Translations under genes and position numbers: made by a program
Source of the DNA: a virus
Virus record (IMG/VR): IMGVR_UViG_3300036671_000354
Location: 1-23,903 of that record
DNA length: 23,903 nt
Reading direction: 5' to 3' (one strand)
Notes under the pieces: generated by a model
What the model was told of the DNA's origin: nothing
What the model saw: only the letters and a program-made list of their open reading frames with translations
The model's database searches: none
Shown here: positions 1,226-22,560 of the stretch, piece by piece
How the letters are laid out: each line of letters begins with the position of its first letter
How positions within the stretch are numbered: position 1 is the first letter of the stretch

Positions 1226-2023
1226 TTACGACTTATTATACACTATGTCGTCAGTGTTTGCTACTAAACTGGATAAATTCATTTTACATCTTTTTTTGTG
1301 TTGTTTAATTTGAACAGTTGCATAATCTTTTCCGCAATGAGTACAAGCCACTCGTCGATAATGTGTGCCTTTACGAGCCTGGTTCATCTCTGTAAATTGT
1401 TTGCTACGTTGTTCTAGGGCACCGGGTTTTTGGTAGATCCAGTTGTTGGTGCCACTGACTTTGGTTGCCACTTCAGGACGCTTCATGTGATGATTGTCAC
1501 CTTTCATTGCTTCTGCTCGTTTAGCCATAGCAACTGGTTGCTTGAAGTTGTGCTTGCTTCCTAATGACGCTTGGAATATGCGTTGTAATTCTGCTATAGC
1601 AGGACGTTTGATACCGTAACAATGATTGTCAGGTCCTTTTTTACCAAAGTGCGGATGATCCGCACCATATAAAGGAGTAATAGATTTGTTGTCGGTTCTA
1701 TTTAGGTAGTCTTTGCGCCACCCCACTTGTAATCTTTTGAGAACACGATGTTCCCATTGTCTAGCAATAGCGGTGTCTTGGAATGTTTTACGTATTTGTA
1801 TTACATCTGGGTCGCCGTGCTGTTTAACAAAAGCAGTGACATGGTGGCTTGATGTAAAGTAGGTGACCCAAAGATCATTGGGGTTGCATGATTTGGAGTA
1901 TCTTACGCCGTAGTAGCTGATGTTCAGCTGAGTCCATTTAAGAAGATATGTGTATGGTTGCATGTCAATCGGTTGCCTGTGTATGTTGCCGGGTACTGCT
2001 AGTTGCCTGTGTAGAGTATGCAT
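1226..2023 (-). CDS. Free-standing GIY-YIG homing endonuclease with NUMOD3-like motifs and C-terminal zinc finger
   Basis: The 265-aa protein has a GIY-YIG-type core: Tyr24 in TYLLKW, YYGVRYS at 37-43 with Arg41, and Glu91 in QWEHRVLKR as the probable metal-binding glutamate. NUMOD3-like glycine/aromatic motifs follow (HFGKKG near 125-130 and GDNHHMKRPE at 175-184). A zinc-finger-like C-x2-C-x11-H-x3-C (Cys227, Cys230, His242, Cys246) sits at the end. Such enzymes cut phage genomes lacking the gene and spread by recombination. The start is uncertain: ATG at 2023 lies in the loop of a hairpin, and an internal ATG at 1963 (MQPYTYLL) sits just before the domain. Neither has a strong ribosome-binding site. 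The gene is inserted between the 756-aa gene and gp32. Confidence 0.85.
   Translation of the reverse strand: MHTLHRQLAVPGNIHRQPIDMQPYTYLLKWTQLNISYYGVRYSKSCNPNDLWVTYFTSSHHVTAFVKQHGDPDVIQIRKTFQDTAIARQWEHRVLKRLQVGWRKDYLNRTDNKSITPLYGADHPHFGKKGPDNHCYGIKRPAIAELQRIFQASLGSKHNFKQPVAMAKRAEAMKGDNHHMKRPEVATKVSGTNNWIYQKPGALEQRSKQFTEMNQARKGTHYRRVACTHCGKDYATVQIKQHKKRCKMNLSSLVANTDDIVYNKS
1235..1244 (-). promoter_or_regulatory. -10-like element AGTGTATAAT upstream of gp32
   Basis: The minus strand carries a perfect TATAAT (1235-1240) preceded by AGTG. It lies within the last codons of the endonuclease gene, about 75 nt upstream of the gp32 start. The hexamer 17 nt further upstream (TAGCAA) is a poor -35 match. 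The same 10-mer occurs before the HNH gene at 6084-6093, and a one-base variant before the exonuclease, suggesting an early or middle phage promoter class. Confidence 0.45.
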
Positions 2024-4364: not shown

Positions 4365-5441
4365 TTAGTGCATGACACTAATGAAGGGCATAGGCGGAAT
4401 TATCACATCTCCGTGGTCTCTCAGCTGAGTATCAATGGCATTATCGTAGGTCTGTAGCAGTTGTAGCATGCGTATGGCCAGCACAGTGCTCATGACTAGG
4501 TCGTCAGTTTCGCCTGATTTGGCTGCATATCCCACGCCCGACGCCACAAAGGTTTTGAGTTCTGACACCAGGCTGGCGCTGCGTATTTTCATGCGGCCAG
4601 TTTCTACCAGAATTTTCAGCTTGTTGCAGGCTGCCAGCTTGCTTTTTGGTGTGGTGTTGAATCCTTTTCGGTATCTGCGATTGCCGCTGCTGTGCGGATC
4701 GCTGAGAAAATAGCCTTGTATGCGGTCCTCGCCGTATTCAGCAATGCTGATTAGTGCAGCTTCGCCGATGGTGTTGTTCTCTATGCTGTAGTAGATACGG
4801 TCTGGATCCCGGGTTGTTTCGTTGATGTGTGCGCAGATGTCAGCCAAGATTCTGATCTGCTCTGGAATGGTTGTTTTGTTGTGGCGCCACTCACCAATCT
4901 GTTCAGTGGTGTTGGCTTCGTAGATCTGTATGGCAGCAGGATCGCCGCCGGTGCCCAAGCTGGGATCCAGGGCCACCACATAGGTACGCCCCGGTTGTGG
5001 ACGTTGATACCAACGCACCTGCCCGGTCTTGTACAAGGGCTCGTGTCCTTGTAGATCCAGTAATTTTGCCGGAGCAATCAAGGTCTCATCGTTTATGACA
5101 AATTCGCAATTTGACACCAATATATTATTGGCATAAAATCGGCGATTATTTTTTACATTTAACAGATCATAAACCTGCTCAGTTCCTAGTAGTGTTACGT
5201 TTACTACTGTTTGCTTCCCAGTTGATGTGTGTAAAGTAATACCAGGACGTAGATTTTTAACTTCCATTGTGGTCAAGTTATCTGTGTAGATCTTGTGATC
5301 CAGAGTGGCTGTTATGGTATTGCGAGTCAGCTGAACTCGGGCTGTCTGCTTGGTGCCTTTGTTGAGTACTCCGTCAAATTTGCTCCAGCCAGTGTCAGTT
5401 AATACTTGCCAGCCCAGCTTGTTTTCTGCTAATTCTTCCAC
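4365..5441 (-). CDS. gp17: C-intein fused to the nuclease half of large terminase gp17
   Basis: The 358-aa product starts at GTG 5441 (AGGGA ribosome-binding site about 9 nt upstream). Residues 1-111 form the C-terminal part of a split intein: block B TLDHK (Thr46, His49), block F VYDLLNV, and block G ending ILVSN before Cys112. Residues 112-358 are the terminase nuclease half, continuing exactly where the N-half stops (EMG joined to CEFVINDETLI). RNase H-type metal residues are visible: Asp159 in VVALDPS, Glu221 in YYSIENNT, and Asp313/Asp314 in ETDDLVMS. After trans-splicing the terminase would be 274+247=521 aa, somewhat shorter than T4 gp17. This half cuts concatemeric DNA during packaging. 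The start overlaps the HNH gene by 47 nt. Confidence 0.92.
   Translation of the reverse strand: MEELAENKLGWQVLTDTGWSKFDGVLNKGTKQTARVQLTRNTITATLDHKIYTDNLTTMEVKNLRPGITLHTSTGKQTVVNVTLLGTEQVYDLLNVKNNRRFYANNILVSNCEFVINDETLIAPAKLLDLQGHEPLYKTGQVRWYQRPQPGRTYVVALDPSLGTGGDPAAIQIYEANTTEQIGEWRHNKTTIPEQIRILADICAHINETTRDPDRIYYSIENNTIGEAALISIAEYGEDRIQGYFLSDPHSSGNRRYRKGFNTTPKSKLAACNKLKILVETGRMKIRSASLVSELKTFVASGVGYAAKSGETDDLVMSTVLAIRMLQLLQTYDNAIDTQLRDHGDVIIPPMPFISVMH
5109..5441 (-). other. Split intein, C-terminal fragment (IntC, 111 aa)
   Basis: Hint-domain features run from WQVLTDTGWSKFDGV (the strand after block A) through block B TxxH (TLDH) to the C-terminal blocks F/G (VYDLLNV ... RFYANNILVSN). The scissile Asn is encoded at 5109-5111 and the +1 Cys of the C-extein at 5106-5108. 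The penultimate residue is Ser, not the usual His. There is no endonuclease domain between blocks B and F, so the intein is of the mini type. Confidence 0.9.
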
Positions 5442-6069
5442 TAATAAATCCCTCGGGTTCTGTTCCTTGCCTATACTGCTTGTCTTTTACACCATCATTA
5501 TACCAACGTAATCCCTTGCGTGCTTCATTTGTATGATTAAGTCTACCCTTTATCCATCCTGGCTGTGCTGACTCAAGATACTTTTCGTCTAGCCCGTTAT
5601 TGTACCAGTGTTTGCCGGCAGAGCTTCCTGTTTTTCCTCTATGGGCATCACCTATGCGCTTGTTTCGATCAGCATCAGCATACACTTTTTCCATCTTGTC
5701 TTTGTACTCCTCGGTGCTTCGAGCAAGCTCTCGAGACTTGCGTTCATCTGCTGACCAGGTTGTACCTTTTTTACGACCACCAATTCCGGGCCGTTTGACT
5801 CCACGATTAGGAGCAGGCTTACCCCACATGGGATTTTTATCGCCTTTTCTATTTTCAGACAGTAATTCGTATACTATCTCTGCGGTAGTAGCAAGTCCAG
5901 CTAGGCCTTTCCAGGCCAATTTGTCTTCAATTCGACCGTGCTCCTCGTATAACTCACGATGTGCTTTTGCGTGTTCTTCTACGGTAAGCTCGACCAGATT
6001 TGATGAATCGTTTGATCCACCCATGTGCCTTGGTATGATATGATGATTGTGTAGTGTATGTTTGCTCAT
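5395..6069 (-). CDS. HNH homing endonuclease lying between the two terminase halves
   Basis: The 224-aa protein begins with an HNH core: HNHHIIPRHMGGSNDSSNLV, then EEHAKAH (His9/His10, Asn24, His33, His37). A NUMOD3-like segment follows (GDKNPMWGKPAPNRGVKRPG, 76-95). The end holds two similar modules of the form WYNNG...GWIKGR (153-177) and WYNDG...GFISGR (187-213), probably DNA-binding. It is a separate gene with its own ATG, 42 nt after the N-half stop codon, and its 3' end overlaps the C-intein gene. It probably cuts uninterrupted terminase genes and so drives spread of the whole intein/endonuclease unit; that role is inferred from known fractured phage genes. A -10-like AGTGTATAAT lies just upstream. 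Confidence 0.88.
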   Translation of the reverse strand: MSKHTLHNHHIIPRHMGGSNDSSNLVELTVEEHAKAHRELYEEHGRIEDKLAWKGLAGLATTAEIVYELLSENRKGDKNPMWGKPAPNRGVKRPGIGGRKKGTTWSADERKSRELARSTEEYKDKMEKVYADADRNKRIGDAHRGKTGSSAGKHWYNNGLDEKYLESAQPGWIKGRLNHTNEARKGLRWYNDGVKDKQYRQGTEPEGFISGRISRKQAGLASIN

Positions 6070-6083
6070 AATTTACTTTGATG

Positions 6084-6093
6084 ATTATACACT
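6084..6093 (-). promoter_or_regulatory. -10-like element AGTGTATAAT upstream of the HNH gene
   Basis: The minus strand reads AGTGTATAAT in the short gap between the terminase N-half stop and the HNH start, with TATAAT ending 14 nt before the ATG. It is identical to the 10-mer upstream of gp32. No good -35 hexamer is visible. If active, it would express the HNH gene and the downstream C-intein/terminase half separately from the N-half. Confidence 0.45.
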
Positions 6094-6111
6094 TACTTAT
6101 CTCGTCCGTGA

Positions 6112-7029
6112 TTATAAACTAAATTTTTTATACAATTCGCCAATTGATAGCAAATGGATTTTTCCAGCTGGATCCTTGACCTTGAGCAGAGCGTCACTGT
6201 ACAAGCAACCCATTTCTCGTCTAAAGCGATCTTCGCCCAGTTGTGCCTGCTGTTCAATGGCCCAGGCTTCGTCGCGATCTGGATGTTCGTTCCAGTATGA
6301 TCGGTAGGCTCTAAATCCATTGATGCCTAAGGGAGTTGGATTACCCCATGCATCTTCACATTTGAGAGCACCTTTCCACAAGAGAGCAAACTGATCTTCG
6401 TCACTGTTGGGTGTACTTGTGATAATGGCCTTGCCACCTGTGGCTAGCGTGGGACTTATCGACGTCCAGAATTCTTTGGCAATGCCAGGTCGTACAAACG
6501 CAAATTCGTCGGCGTACAGCAATGATATACTCATGCCTCGTCCGGTATTTTCTGTTGTGGTTGTTGATACTATTCTACTGCCGTTTTCAAAGTCTAGATT
6601 ACCTTTGTTGTAACTGGTAACCCCGGCACGGATATGATCTGGACACAGCTCGTAGGCATAACGAATACGTTGCATGATCTCCTGTGAGCCGGTGTACTTG
6701 TGCGCAGCAATCAGGATTGTGGAATCTGGATGGAACATGGCCATCCATAGTAGATATCCAGCTGCGCTGGTACTTTTACCTGTTTGTCGCGGCATCATGC
6801 TGATGCTGTAGCGATAATTGTGATAGGTATCTATCAGGCGTCGTTGGTATTCAAACGGATGATACAGCATCTTGCCCTTGGTTGGGTGCTGTATGTGAAA
6901 AAAGTTGTCCATAAAATACACAGGACCAGTCACAGGATCTGCACAGGCCAAAAATTCAGCCAGCTGTTGCTCGGTGAATGTGGTATTCTTGTACGGGGTT
7001 TTGACTAGGTTAGATTCAGTTTGACTCAT
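6112..7029 (-). CDS. gp17: ATPase half of large terminase gp17 fused to N-intein
   Basis: The 305-aa product carries the packaging motor ATPase: Walker A RQTGKST (81-87, Lys85), Walker B LLYADEF (170-176, Asp174/Glu175) and the coupling motif TSTPN (204-208). This motor drives DNA through the portal into the prohead. The terminase part ends at Gly274 (RREMG). The last 31 residues, starting at Cys275 (CLYSDALLKVKDPAGK), are an N-intein with block A. Translation then stops with TAA at 6112-6114. The ATG overlaps the stop of the radical SAM gene (ATGA), implying translational coupling. The nuclease domain is encoded separately at 4365-5441, so activity as a full-length terminase would need trans-splicing or assembly of the halves. 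Confidence 0.93.
   Translation of the reverse strand: MSQTESNLVKTPYKNTTFTEQQLAEFLACADPVTGPVYFMDNFFHIQHPTKGKMLYHPFEYQRRLIDTYHNYRYSISMMPRQTGKSTSAAGYLLWMAMFHPDSTILIAAHKYTGSQEIMQRIRYAYELCPDHIRAGVTSYNKGNLDFENGSRIVSTTTTENTGRGMSISLLYADEFAFVRPGIAKEFWTSISPTLATGGKAIITSTPNSDEDQFALLWKGALKCEDAWGNPTPLGINGFRAYRSYWNEHPDRDEAWAIEQQAQLGEDRFRREMGCLYSDALLKVKDPAGKIHLLSIGELYKKFSL
6115..6207 (-). other. Split intein, N-terminal fragment (IntN, 31 aa)
   Basis: It runs from Cys1 (codon at 6205-6207) through CLYSDALLKVKDPAGKIHLL and ends GELYKKFSL before the stop. The Cys plus acidic/hydrophobic pattern fits intein block A, and IGELYK is a common continuation in phage TerL inteins. It is far shorter than the roughly 100-aa N-fragments of canonical split inteins. 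It is close to the 25-aa IntN I recall for AceL-TerL. Confidence 0.88.
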
Positions 7030-8153
7030 AGTAATTTACTTATTTCGGGCCATAACTTGGCAAATTGACCTTGCTGATCGTGATGATATACGCTTTCTAT
7101 TTCGTTGATGTGTTGTTTTAATTCGGCACGCAGATCTTGAATGCTAGATAAATTGATCAAAACAGTTTGAAAAAAATCCTGTTCGCTAGCAAGGCATATT
7201 CCAAGACTCAATAACTGTTTAATTTCCTGCCTGGCTAGGTCTGCAATGCCATCTCCGAGACGGGCAGGATCCAGGCATTCGGGTTGATACAGGCTCTGCC
7301 AATGTATAGTAAGTCCGCGGGCTCGTGCAAACTTGGTAAGTTCTACCAAGCAAGTTGCATTGTACAAGTTGTATACTGCATGTATACCGCCCCAGTGTCC
7401 ATGCGTGTCCATAAGAGGCTTTAATAGATCAAGATTCTTTTCCAACAGGTTCCATGTGCCGCCGTGCCGCACGTATTCAAATTTGTTGCCAATGTTGTCG
7501 AAGCTCAGACTCCATCCTACTTGTTTGCGATCAGCTAGCTTGGCAAAAATTTTGTTGGTAGCCAGCTCCACACTCACATTGGTTATCAAGGTCACGACAC
7601 AGTTTTCCGGCAATACATCAAGCAGTCGACTGTTTTCCGGCAACAGCAAGGGTTCGCCGCCAACCAAGGCCACTTCTCTTATGTGACTCCGATGTTGTTC
7701 AAGGTAGTCACACACCTGCTCGTAGTAAGGACGTGCACCGGATTTGAACGGTATATGCTTGAGTGCAGCCCATTTGCTAGAACACTTGTCACCACAATAG
7801 TTGCAACTCAAGTTACAGGTAGTATTCCAGCGTACATCAATCAAGACCGGCACATGCTCAGTATCGGCAGCAGTGGTGCAATCGAATTCAGGACTGACCT
7901 CGTTGTGCCAGTTGCGTTCACTGCGCCCATAACGTTCGGCTTGTATACAGTTGTGACAGTACTTTTCGTGAAGTTTTCCACTGCGTAGAGTTTGACGGAT
8001 TTCCTGTAGCACTGGGCCGTGCAGTATTTGCTCGATACTTTGTGCGTCTAGATTTCCCAGCATGTTAGGATCACCGGCACAGCATGTTTTTACATCACCA
8101 CGAGGATTTATATGCAGTCCCCTCCATGGGGCTGCACAAGATTGATAGCTCAT
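7026..8153 (-). CDS. Radical SAM protein with N-terminal SPASM/twitch-like Cys cluster
   Basis: The 375-aa protein has a canonical radical SAM CxxxCxxC (Cys113, Cys117, Cys120 in TTCNLSCNYC) that would bind a 4Fe-4S cluster and SAM, and the GGEP motif (165-168). Before the core is a second Cys set (Cys6, CC at 24-25, Cys66, Cys69) in the context CAAPWRGLHINPRGDVKTCC and GNL, typical of SPASM/twitch domains that hold an auxiliary cluster. In most SPASM enzymes this domain is C-terminal, though N-terminal versions occur. The substrate is unknown. The gene follows the SGNH hydrolase by 7 nt and overlaps the terminase start by 4 nt, so it should be made late. A role in modifying a peptide, a host surface molecule or a virion component is possible, but nothing here decides. 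Confidence 0.88.
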   Translation of the reverse strand: MSYQSCAAPWRGLHINPRGDVKTCCAGDPNMLGNLDAQSIEQILHGPVLQEIRQTLRSGKLHEKYCHNCIQAERYGRSERNWHNEVSPEFDCTTAADTEHVPVLIDVRWNTTCNLSCNYCGDKCSSKWAALKHIPFKSGARPYYEQVCDYLEQHRSHIREVALVGGEPLLLPENSRLLDVLPENCVVTLITNVSVELATNKIFAKLADRKQVGWSLSFDNIGNKFEYVRHGGTWNLLEKNLDLLKPLMDTHGHWGGIHAVYNLYNATCLVELTKFARARGLTIHWQSLYQPECLDPARLGDGIADLARQEIKQLLSLGICLASEQDFFQTVLINLSSIQDLRAELKQHINEIESVYHHDQQGQFAKLWPEISKLL

Positions 8154-19709: not shown

Positions 19710-20666
19710 ATGACTTTGTTAAATCAAGCCAGTGTTTACTGGATACACTTGCTGGAACACACCGACATTAACACCCAGGGCTACGTGGGGGTGTCCAAGG
19801 ACGTGGATTTTCGCACCGTAACACACCTGCGCCAACTTGTGGACGGTACACATACCAACCCTCATCTAAAATATGCATTTGACAAATACGGGTGGGAAAA
19901 ATTCAAAGTTGACGTGGTACTATGCGGAGATGAAGCCTATTGTTATGTTGTGGAAAACTCCCTACGCCCGCTCAAAAATATTGGATGGAACATCACCATC
20001 GGTGGGCATCGTGGACCAGGATGGACCAAGGGTGTAAAGAAAAGCCAGCAGGCAATTGCAAAACAAAAAGCCACAACTCTTTTGCGATACGGAAATCGAA
20101 AAGAACTACGAGAAATTGCCAGAAAAGCGCAAGTTGCAACAAATCGTGCTGCACGGGCTCAACAAAAAGCTCAAGCTGCTATAGATCTCCAGCAGGAGCG
20201 TGATCGTATCAAGCAAGAACGTGCCAAGAAAAAGTTGCAAAAGTCAGAAAGAATCCAACAAGAGCGTCAACAGAGAAGGCAAGAACGAGCAGTAGAAAAG
20301 GCTGAAATATCGCTAAATCAACCGCGTCCCATCTGTCCGTATTGCAGTCAAAGACCCAGGGCTGTGGCCTATCATAGACCAGATCGAATCTATTATCGCA
20401 GTGGATGTATGCAGTGTCTGAAACGGAGCCAGCACAGAACTGTACCCAAGATGCGGTGGCAGTTGGCAGGCTACAAGAAAAAACCCACGTGCGATCTTTG
20501 TGGGTTTAGGGCTAGATATTCAGCTCAGTTACAAGTGTTTCACATGGACGGCAATCTCAACAACACAGGGTTGGCAAATCTAAAAACTATATGTCAAAAC
20601 TGTGCAGTTGGAATCAAGAAGTCAGATCAGCCGAGTCGGGCCGGAGATCTCGAACCAGATCTGTGA
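19710..20666 (+). CDS. GIY-YIG nuclease fused to coiled coil and zinc-finger/HNH-like domain
   Basis: The 318-aa plus-strand protein has an N-terminal GIY-YIG domain: VYWIHL (9-14), GYVGVS (24-29), Arg35, and Glu82 in VENSLRP, followed by IGWNITIGG. A long basic coiled-coil stretch rich in Gln, Arg and Lys covers about 130-200. Two zinc-binding Cys pairs follow (Cys209/212 with Cys233/236, and Cys261/264 with Cys295/298). The second encloses FHMDGNLNNTGLANLKTI, the pattern of an HNH-like family I recall as free-standing in T4-like phages. It is probably a mobile homing endonuclease. No strong ribosome-binding site is seen. The 3' end overlaps the convergent kinase gene by 53 bp. Confidence 0.8.
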   Translation: MTLLNQASVYWIHLLEHTDINTQGYVGVSKDVDFRTVTHLRQLVDGTHTNPHLKYAFDKYGWEKFKVDVVLCGDEAYCYVVENSLRPLKNIGWNITIGGHRGPGWTKGVKKSQQAIAKQKATTLLRYGNRKELREIARKAQVATNRAARAQQKAQAAIDLQQERDRIKQERAKKKLQKSERIQQERQQRRQERAVEKAEISLNQPRPICPYCSQRPRAVAYHRPDRIYYRSGCMQCLKRSQHRTVPKMRWQLAGYKKKPTCDLCGFRARYSAQLQVFHMDGNLNNTGLANLKTICQNCAVGIKKSDQPSRAGDLEPDL

Positions 20667-21900: not shown

Positions 21901-22560
21901 ATGTCTACTTATCCACTCCGATTCTACGTATACGCATATCTGCGCAAACACGACTTGACTCCGTATTATATCGGCAAAGGCACCGGTAGCCGGGCATGGG
22001 CAAAAGATCACAAGGTCATTGTTCCTGTTGATGATCGGCGGATTATTATTGTAGAGTCAGGGCTAACTAATTTAGGTGCGTTGGCTATCGAACGTTGGCT
22101 TATCCGCTGGTATGGACGCAAAGATAATAACACTGGTATATTACGCAACATGACCGACGGTGGTGACGGGGGCTGTAACGGTGTACCATCAGAAAAAAGA
22201 AGACTGGCCTGTATCAAATCCAATCAAGAAAGAGTTTGGCAAGAGAGTTCCAAAAACCAATTAAGAAAAATTAATACTGGAAAAACATATTCAGCCGCAA
22301 TCAATGCCAAAAAAGGATCTACCAAAGGGCAGATCTGGATGTATAATACCAGCACGTTGACCGGATTACGTGTCGATACTCACAAAGTTACTGCGTATGT
22401 CAATAATGGGTGGGTTAAAGGAAGAGGTCCGACTATAAAGTTAAATCATAATCGAAACAAAAAATATATCTTTAATCCTGCTACAAGCAAGACCAAAATG
22501 ATATCCCAGCAAGATCTGGAATACTACGTATCAATTGGGTGGACTCCGGGCAGGAAGTAA
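21901..22560 (+). CDS. Free-standing GIY-YIG homing endonuclease
   Basis: The 219-aa plus-strand protein has a GIY-YIG core: FYVYAYLR (8-15), [13 protein letters not shown] (21-33) with Arg31, and Glu64 in [12 protein letters not shown], followed by NMTDGGDGG. The C-terminal half has two similar modules, [11 protein letters not shown]...NNGWVKGRG (about 144-176) and [11 protein letters not shown]...SIGWTPGRK (about 189-219). They resemble those of the HNH protein at 5395-6069 and probably bind DNA. The ATG has AAAGGA upstream at good spacing. It is transcribed against its neighbours, and its TAA directly abuts the gp13 stop codon with no gap, as for a mobile gene inserted between phage genes. 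Confidence 0.87.

Follow-up and report, generated by a model that had tools for sequence, protein, structure and literature searches.

The stretch of bacteriophage DNA analysed here, referred to as the window, comprises 23,903 nucleotides (IMG/VR record IMGVR_UViG_3300036671_000354, positions 1 to 23,903) and is a 23.9-kb fragment of its genome, recovered as one metagenome contig. In it, terL, the gene for the large terminase subunit (TerL) of the packaging motor, is fractured into two genes (Table 1). In order of transcription, the minus strand carries the ATPase half with a short tail (7029-6112), a free-standing HNH homing-endonuclease gene (6069-5395), and a second terL gene (5441-4365). 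The terL frame breaks after residue 274, where a predicted N-intein begins (coding part 6207-6115, stop codon 6114-6112), and the second gene opens with a predicted C-intein ending SN/CEF. Thus, the locus has the anatomy of a fractured gene, with a free-standing homing-endonuclease gene between two intein-tagged terL halves, and the same arrangement recurs in relatives.

Table 1. Features of the fractured terL locus, listed in order of transcription.
Feature	Coordinates	Strand	Basis or remark
terL 5' part, ATPase half, 274 codons (N-extein)	6208..7029	-	Pfam Terminase_6N, 2.6e-16
N-intein, 31 residues (CLYSDALL...KKFSL), plus stop	6112..6207	-	aligned with five relatives
Free-standing HNH homing-endonuclease gene, 224 residues	5395..6069	-	PHROG homing endonuclease, 1.2e-17
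Shine-Dalgarno-like GAGGGA	5449..5454	-	within the HNH gene, 7 nt 5' of the GTG of the C-half
C-intein, 111 residues, GTG start, TLDH motif, ending ILVSN	5109..5441	-	Pfam Intein_splicing, family profile
terL 3' part, nuclease half, 247 codons plus stop (C-extein from Cys+1)	4365..5108	-	Pfam Terminase_6C, 3.8e-7

Removal of 6207-5109 produces a TerL of 521 residues (58.9 kDa) with the join ...RREMG/CEFVINDETL..., and coverage of PHROG 36964 (TerL) is contiguous over the break, the first product matching positions 434-630 and the second product positions 626-862. Taken separately, the 5' part matches PHROG TerL (6e-65) and T4 gp17 (1.7e-30), while the 3' part matches PHROG TerL (1.3e-42) and the nuclease domain of T4 gp17 (2e-11). 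The Walker A and Walker B motifs and the acidic residues of the nuclease are all present in the translated halves. Further in-frame stops separate the N-intein stop from the start of the HNH gene, so a single base error cannot account for the break. On the alignment to T4 gp17, the break falls at about T353/A354 (3ezk numbering, counted on the alignment), beside the border between the ATPase and nuclease domains. An original prediction, made from the letters of the window, had placed a split intein around an HNH gene at these coordinates and had proposed a 521-residue terminase joined at Gly274 and Cys; both the coordinates and the join are borne out by the open reading frames (ORFs) and by the uninterrupted profile coverage.

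To place the break in context, we scanned viral contigs twice and collected 150 loci. More than 130 of these have an intact terL that runs without a gap through the junction, and seven, including the window, carry a similar insert at the identical codon. A scan of viral contigs with an alignment of the C-inteins added about 50 loci at this site, hereafter site 274. After deduplication, the 177 terL loci comprised 129 that are intact at site 274, 45 that are split there and three that hold a contiguous intein there, although these counts are no measure of frequency, as the census was partly selected through intein searches. The recurrence of the three-part insert at one codon in dozens of contigs, some of them longer than 300 kb, is not a matter of chance. 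The contiguous forms include in-frame mini-inteins in L161 (2554-2982, 143 residues) and L166 (2037-2432). In three split loci (L191, L192 and L193), the nuclease gene is reduced to its C-terminal module, and in L047 (188-2321) a free-standing HNH gene sharing 60% identity with that of the window comes immediately after an intact 521-residue terL, possibly a form without the intein. No relative was found in a scan of bacterial and archaeal genome contigs. In cultured phages, matches to the C-intein are distant and belong to other lineages, the best among the matches listed being 30-33% identical.

Several lines of evidence suggest that the pieces flanking the HNH gene are the two parts of a split intein. 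The window has the class 1 nucleophiles Cys1 and Cys+1 as well as the terminal Asn111. Across the family, Thr46, His49, Asp92, Arg101, Asn111 and Cys+1 are invariant in 43 of 43 unique C-inteins, which thus all keep the block B TxxH motif (T46, H49) and the block F Asp (D92), and Cys1 and Gly15 are invariant in 39 of 39 unique N-inteins, nearly all loci having N-inteins of 30-37 residues. Searched against the PDB, the family profile matches VidaL (1e-11), a DnaX mini-intein (1.7e-10), gp41-1 (6e-10) and CatC (3e-9). Pfam Intein_splicing matches 38 rows of a 71-row family alignment in which 42 rows have the C-intein (E up to 0.1; best 1.5e-7), with the match displayed in full falling under the curated cut-off. 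Because the two intein pieces of the window cannot be folded as one chain, we modelled the contiguous sister intein of L161 as a stand-in, from an alignment anchored on the exteins. The AlphaFold2 model has a HINT fold (predicted local distance difference test score 86.5), and its top Foldseek match is again VidaL (1e-11; TM-score 0.86 by target length). Finally, with saturated pairs set aside, the ratio of nonsynonymous to synonymous substitution rates (dN/dS) is about 0.03-0.3 for all parts of the insert (N-intein, HNH gene and C-intein), indicating that they are maintained; in the terL halves it is about 0.02-0.1. Taken together, the family-wide catalytic residues, the profile matches and the predicted fold support the proposal of a split intein around the HNH gene.

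The HNH gene matches PHROG 655 (homing endonuclease) and has a conserved His/Asn/His pattern; its Pfam matches, HNH_5 (4.7e-4) and HNH (3.1e-3), are both under the Pfam cut-offs. It is 59-65% identical to the HNH genes at the equivalent place in relatives. The TAA stop of those genes is CAA in the window, which makes the ORF eight codons longer, and its end therefore overlaps the start of the C-intein by 47 nt. Mobility of the insert shows in sister pairs such as L003/L033, in which synonymous divergence (dS) is 0.25 in the N-intein, 0.29 in the HNH gene and 0.42 in the C-intein, whereas the terL flanks reach 2.3 and 2.8. Nucleotide identity in this pair is 89-96% within the insert and 68-83% in the flanks, with steps at both ends of the insert. 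The insert is likewise more alike than the surrounding terL in L152/L155 and in L175/L176/L180. This pattern in sister pairs of the family shows that the N-intein, HNH gene and C-intein have been transferred together, as a unit. The window copy is without a close sister, and its insert is no closer to that of L003 than the flanks are. On a quick TerL tree, the distribution of the intein is patchy, and the intein/intact label changes at least 15 times, with nine changes forced by strong branches. In one relative (L163, 4995-6011), the nuclease position is occupied by a match to Pfam DUF7487 (3e-35) that also matches PHROG homing endonucleases weakly; from its position and these matches, DUF7487 may be a homing-endonuclease family.

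Based upon the sequences and the modelled fold, we consider it very probable that the two-piece TerL is made by protein trans-splicing and that the insert spreads by the action of the HNH protein. The ATPase half and the 31-residue N-intein would be translated from one gene, and the 111-residue C-intein and nuclease half separately, initiating at the GTG with a ribosome-binding site of their own inside the HNH gene. The two intein pieces would associate and fold together as a single HINT domain; acyl transfers by Cys1 and Cys+1 and cyclisation of the C-terminal Asn111 would then leave a peptide bond between Gly274 and Cys, joining the terminase halves into the 521-residue TerL. For its part, the HNH protein would cut terL alleles that lack the insert, after which the N-intein, HNH gene and C-intein would be copied in together. 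If so, the packaging motor would depend on splicing.

Some observations weigh against this interpretation. The residue before Asn111 is Ser110 in the window rather than the usual His, and in the family it is Ser in 29 sequences and Lys in 14. Active inteins without a penultimate His are known, however, and this feature does not define the class. Taken alone, the N-intein of the window is so short that its database matches do not reach significance. In addition, the HNH gene of the window lacks the stop codon of its family and has an extra repeat, which makes its cutting activity uncertain. The support for splicing consists of sequence and a predicted fold, and at 23.9 kb the window leaves room for another terL in the rest of its genome.

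The two halves could also be imagined to work without being joined, assembling non-covalently into a functional motor, with the intein pieces surviving as relics or serving as assembly tags. The break adjoins the ATPase-nuclease border of T4 gp17, so separate halves could fold, and there is a precedent in a genes-in-pieces ribonucleotide reductase that a homing endonuclease split into two working peptides (PMC10448857). Yet relics would decay, whereas the splicing residues of both pieces are invariant over divergent loci and under purifying selection, and in L161 and L166, where the intein is contiguous, TerL can become uninterrupted only by splicing in cis. We therefore regard non-covalent assembly as improbable. 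A terL that is simply broken, through gene decay or a mistake in assembly, is a still poorer account: the window is a single metagenome contig, but recurrence of the arrangement in dozens of contigs, some above 300 kb, refutes an assembly error, and the intact Walker and nuclease residues and the low dN/dS of the terL halves speak against decay.

Least credible of all, in our judgement, is that 6207-5109 is a group I or group II intron removed from the RNA before translation. Phage ICP1 does have a spliced terL transcript beside a homing endonuclease (PMC10448857). However, both ends of the insert in the window encode protein sequence that is conserved and resembles inteins. Rfam gave no match in the whole window at the gathering threshold and no intron family in region 4900-6500 at E up to 5; an intron was rejected on both grounds. 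The original prediction had named a group I intron at 5109-6207 and a second, intact gp17 as findings that would overturn it. The intron is unsupported by these searches, and so is the second gene, with one TerL and no other found in each of six fractured-form contigs of 67-337 kb, none of which is known to be complete. Trans-splicing thus remains the preferred explanation.

Fractured genes were reportedly described by Dassa et al. in 2009. Split inteins around a free-standing homing endonuclease in such genes are already known (PMC7891396, PMC11766414), and the nuclease may be of HNH or GIY-YIG type (PMC6892783, PMC7891396). Their plan recurs in the window: a host gene in two parts, half of a split intein on either side of the break, and a free-standing homing endonuclease in the middle. 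Among the closest known systems are AceL-TerL, GOS-TerL and the consensus Cat intein (PDB 6dsl), whose N- and C-inteins measure 25/104, 37/115 and 30/104 residues (PMC11766414). Like these, the window has an atypical split with a short N-intein (31/111 residues), terL as host gene, and Cys+1 followed by Glu. The alignment of the CatC chain to the family of the window extends through C+1 E+2, and this flank supports placement of the insert at the Cat (AceL/GOS consensus) TerL intein site. Moreover, L322 carries a Cat-like intein at site 274 (CatC match 1.2e-11) that is 37% identical to the window intein (7e-24). The suggested kinship to AceL-TerL thus held, and the window adds to the fractured terL genes with atypical split inteins that are already known from AceL and GOS (PMC11766414). 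In sequence, the family is nevertheless distant from these inteins, as its profile match to CatC indicates, and GOS-TerL has Ser1 where the window has Cys1. VidaL (PDB 6vgv), the best match by both structure and profile, is only about 21% identical over the L161 model. In the fractured AceL NrdHF gene, the nuclease is of GIY-YIG type and the split is typical, whereas the window has an HNH nuclease and an atypical split. By TerL, MIJ3 and PA5oct (57.8%) are among the closest phages in culture. MIJ3 has a PolB split intein with the HNH gene orf154 (PMC6892783); as in the window, an HNH homing endonuclease accompanies a fractured gene, but the host gene differs; PA5oct terL, unlike that of the window, is annotated as one intact gene. 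The annotation of Atu_ph07 divides terL between two genes.

The start of the C-half is organised similarly across the family. In nearly all split loci with an HNH or GIY-YIG nuclease, AGGA or GAGG lies about 7 nt before a GTG or ATG start, and both this Shine-Dalgarno-like sequence and the start lie within the last codons of the nuclease gene. The start is ATG in L163, L164, L188 and L194, and in L163 and L188 it overlaps the end of another nuclease-like gene. The contiguous intein of L161 keeps AAGGATTCCACCGTG at the position of the C-half start site. In this locus AAGGATTCCACCGTG reads as a trace of an old start site, and we infer that its contiguous intein descended from a split form. Site 274 offers stages of a cycle at one codon: intact, split with a nuclease, split with a decayed nuclease (L191, L192), and contiguous (L161, L166). 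With 43 unique C-inteins, and N-inteins that mostly measure 30-37 residues, this one site is also a rich natural source of atypical split inteins. Such a set is of use in protein ligation, for which short N-inteins are in demand.

The surprising part of these results lies in the relatives rather than in the window, in terminases of three and four pieces. Relatives also have inteins at a second site of terL, after residue 172, and at a third, after residue 85, and at least two sites are split in eleven unique loci, with two or three split-intein sites each (L157, L174, L181, L241, L315/L316, L317, L322, L341, L354, L356 and L359). Each is a single contig of a public collection, taken as assembled. 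Examples with three terL genes and further, mostly nuclease-like ORFs between are L157, L174, L241 and L317, and in L181 sites 85, 172 and 274 are all split, giving four terL pieces. The C-inteins of site 172 are 24-33% identical to the site-274 query from the window; such distant likeness between inteins of one terL is expected if cross-reaction must be avoided. We lean, by a small margin over even, towards terL being a multi-site split-intein target here (85, 172 and 274), with three or four polypeptides all spliced together and with nucleases of HNH, GIY-YIG and DUF7487 type swapped freely, the HNH and GIY-YIG versions sharing a similar C-terminal module that holds the ribosome-binding site and start of the next half. 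The literature searched yielded no account of a natural protein made of four pieces of this kind. In terminases of three and four pieces, the sequential trans-splicing of an essential viral motor would be open to direct test.

At site 85, L315 and L316 have a contiguous in-frame insert of 328 residues whose first residue is Ala (ALALDTPIPTNS); it may be a class 3 intein. Between the split halves at site 172 lies a match to PHROG 5104, of unknown function (L157, 3853-4731; L181, 1611-2852), which may be a nuclease. Directly upstream of the fractured terL, L316 (3307-4095) and likewise L333, L334, L336 and L352 have a second, divergent TerL-like stretch (about 27-37% identical, mostly ATPase part).

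Elsewhere in the window, there are three more homing-endonuclease-like genes, at 1226-2023 (minus strand), 19710-20666 (plus strand) and 21901-22560 (plus strand). The last of these and the GIY-YIG-like nuclease of the terL insert in L160 match one PHROG (15526). The sequence TAAATA, which resembles the core of the T4 late promoter, occurs in seven of the 24 40-nt regions upstream of genes and only 12 times in the window, both strands counted. A radical SAM gene (7026-8153, minus strand) overlaps the start of terL by 4 nt.
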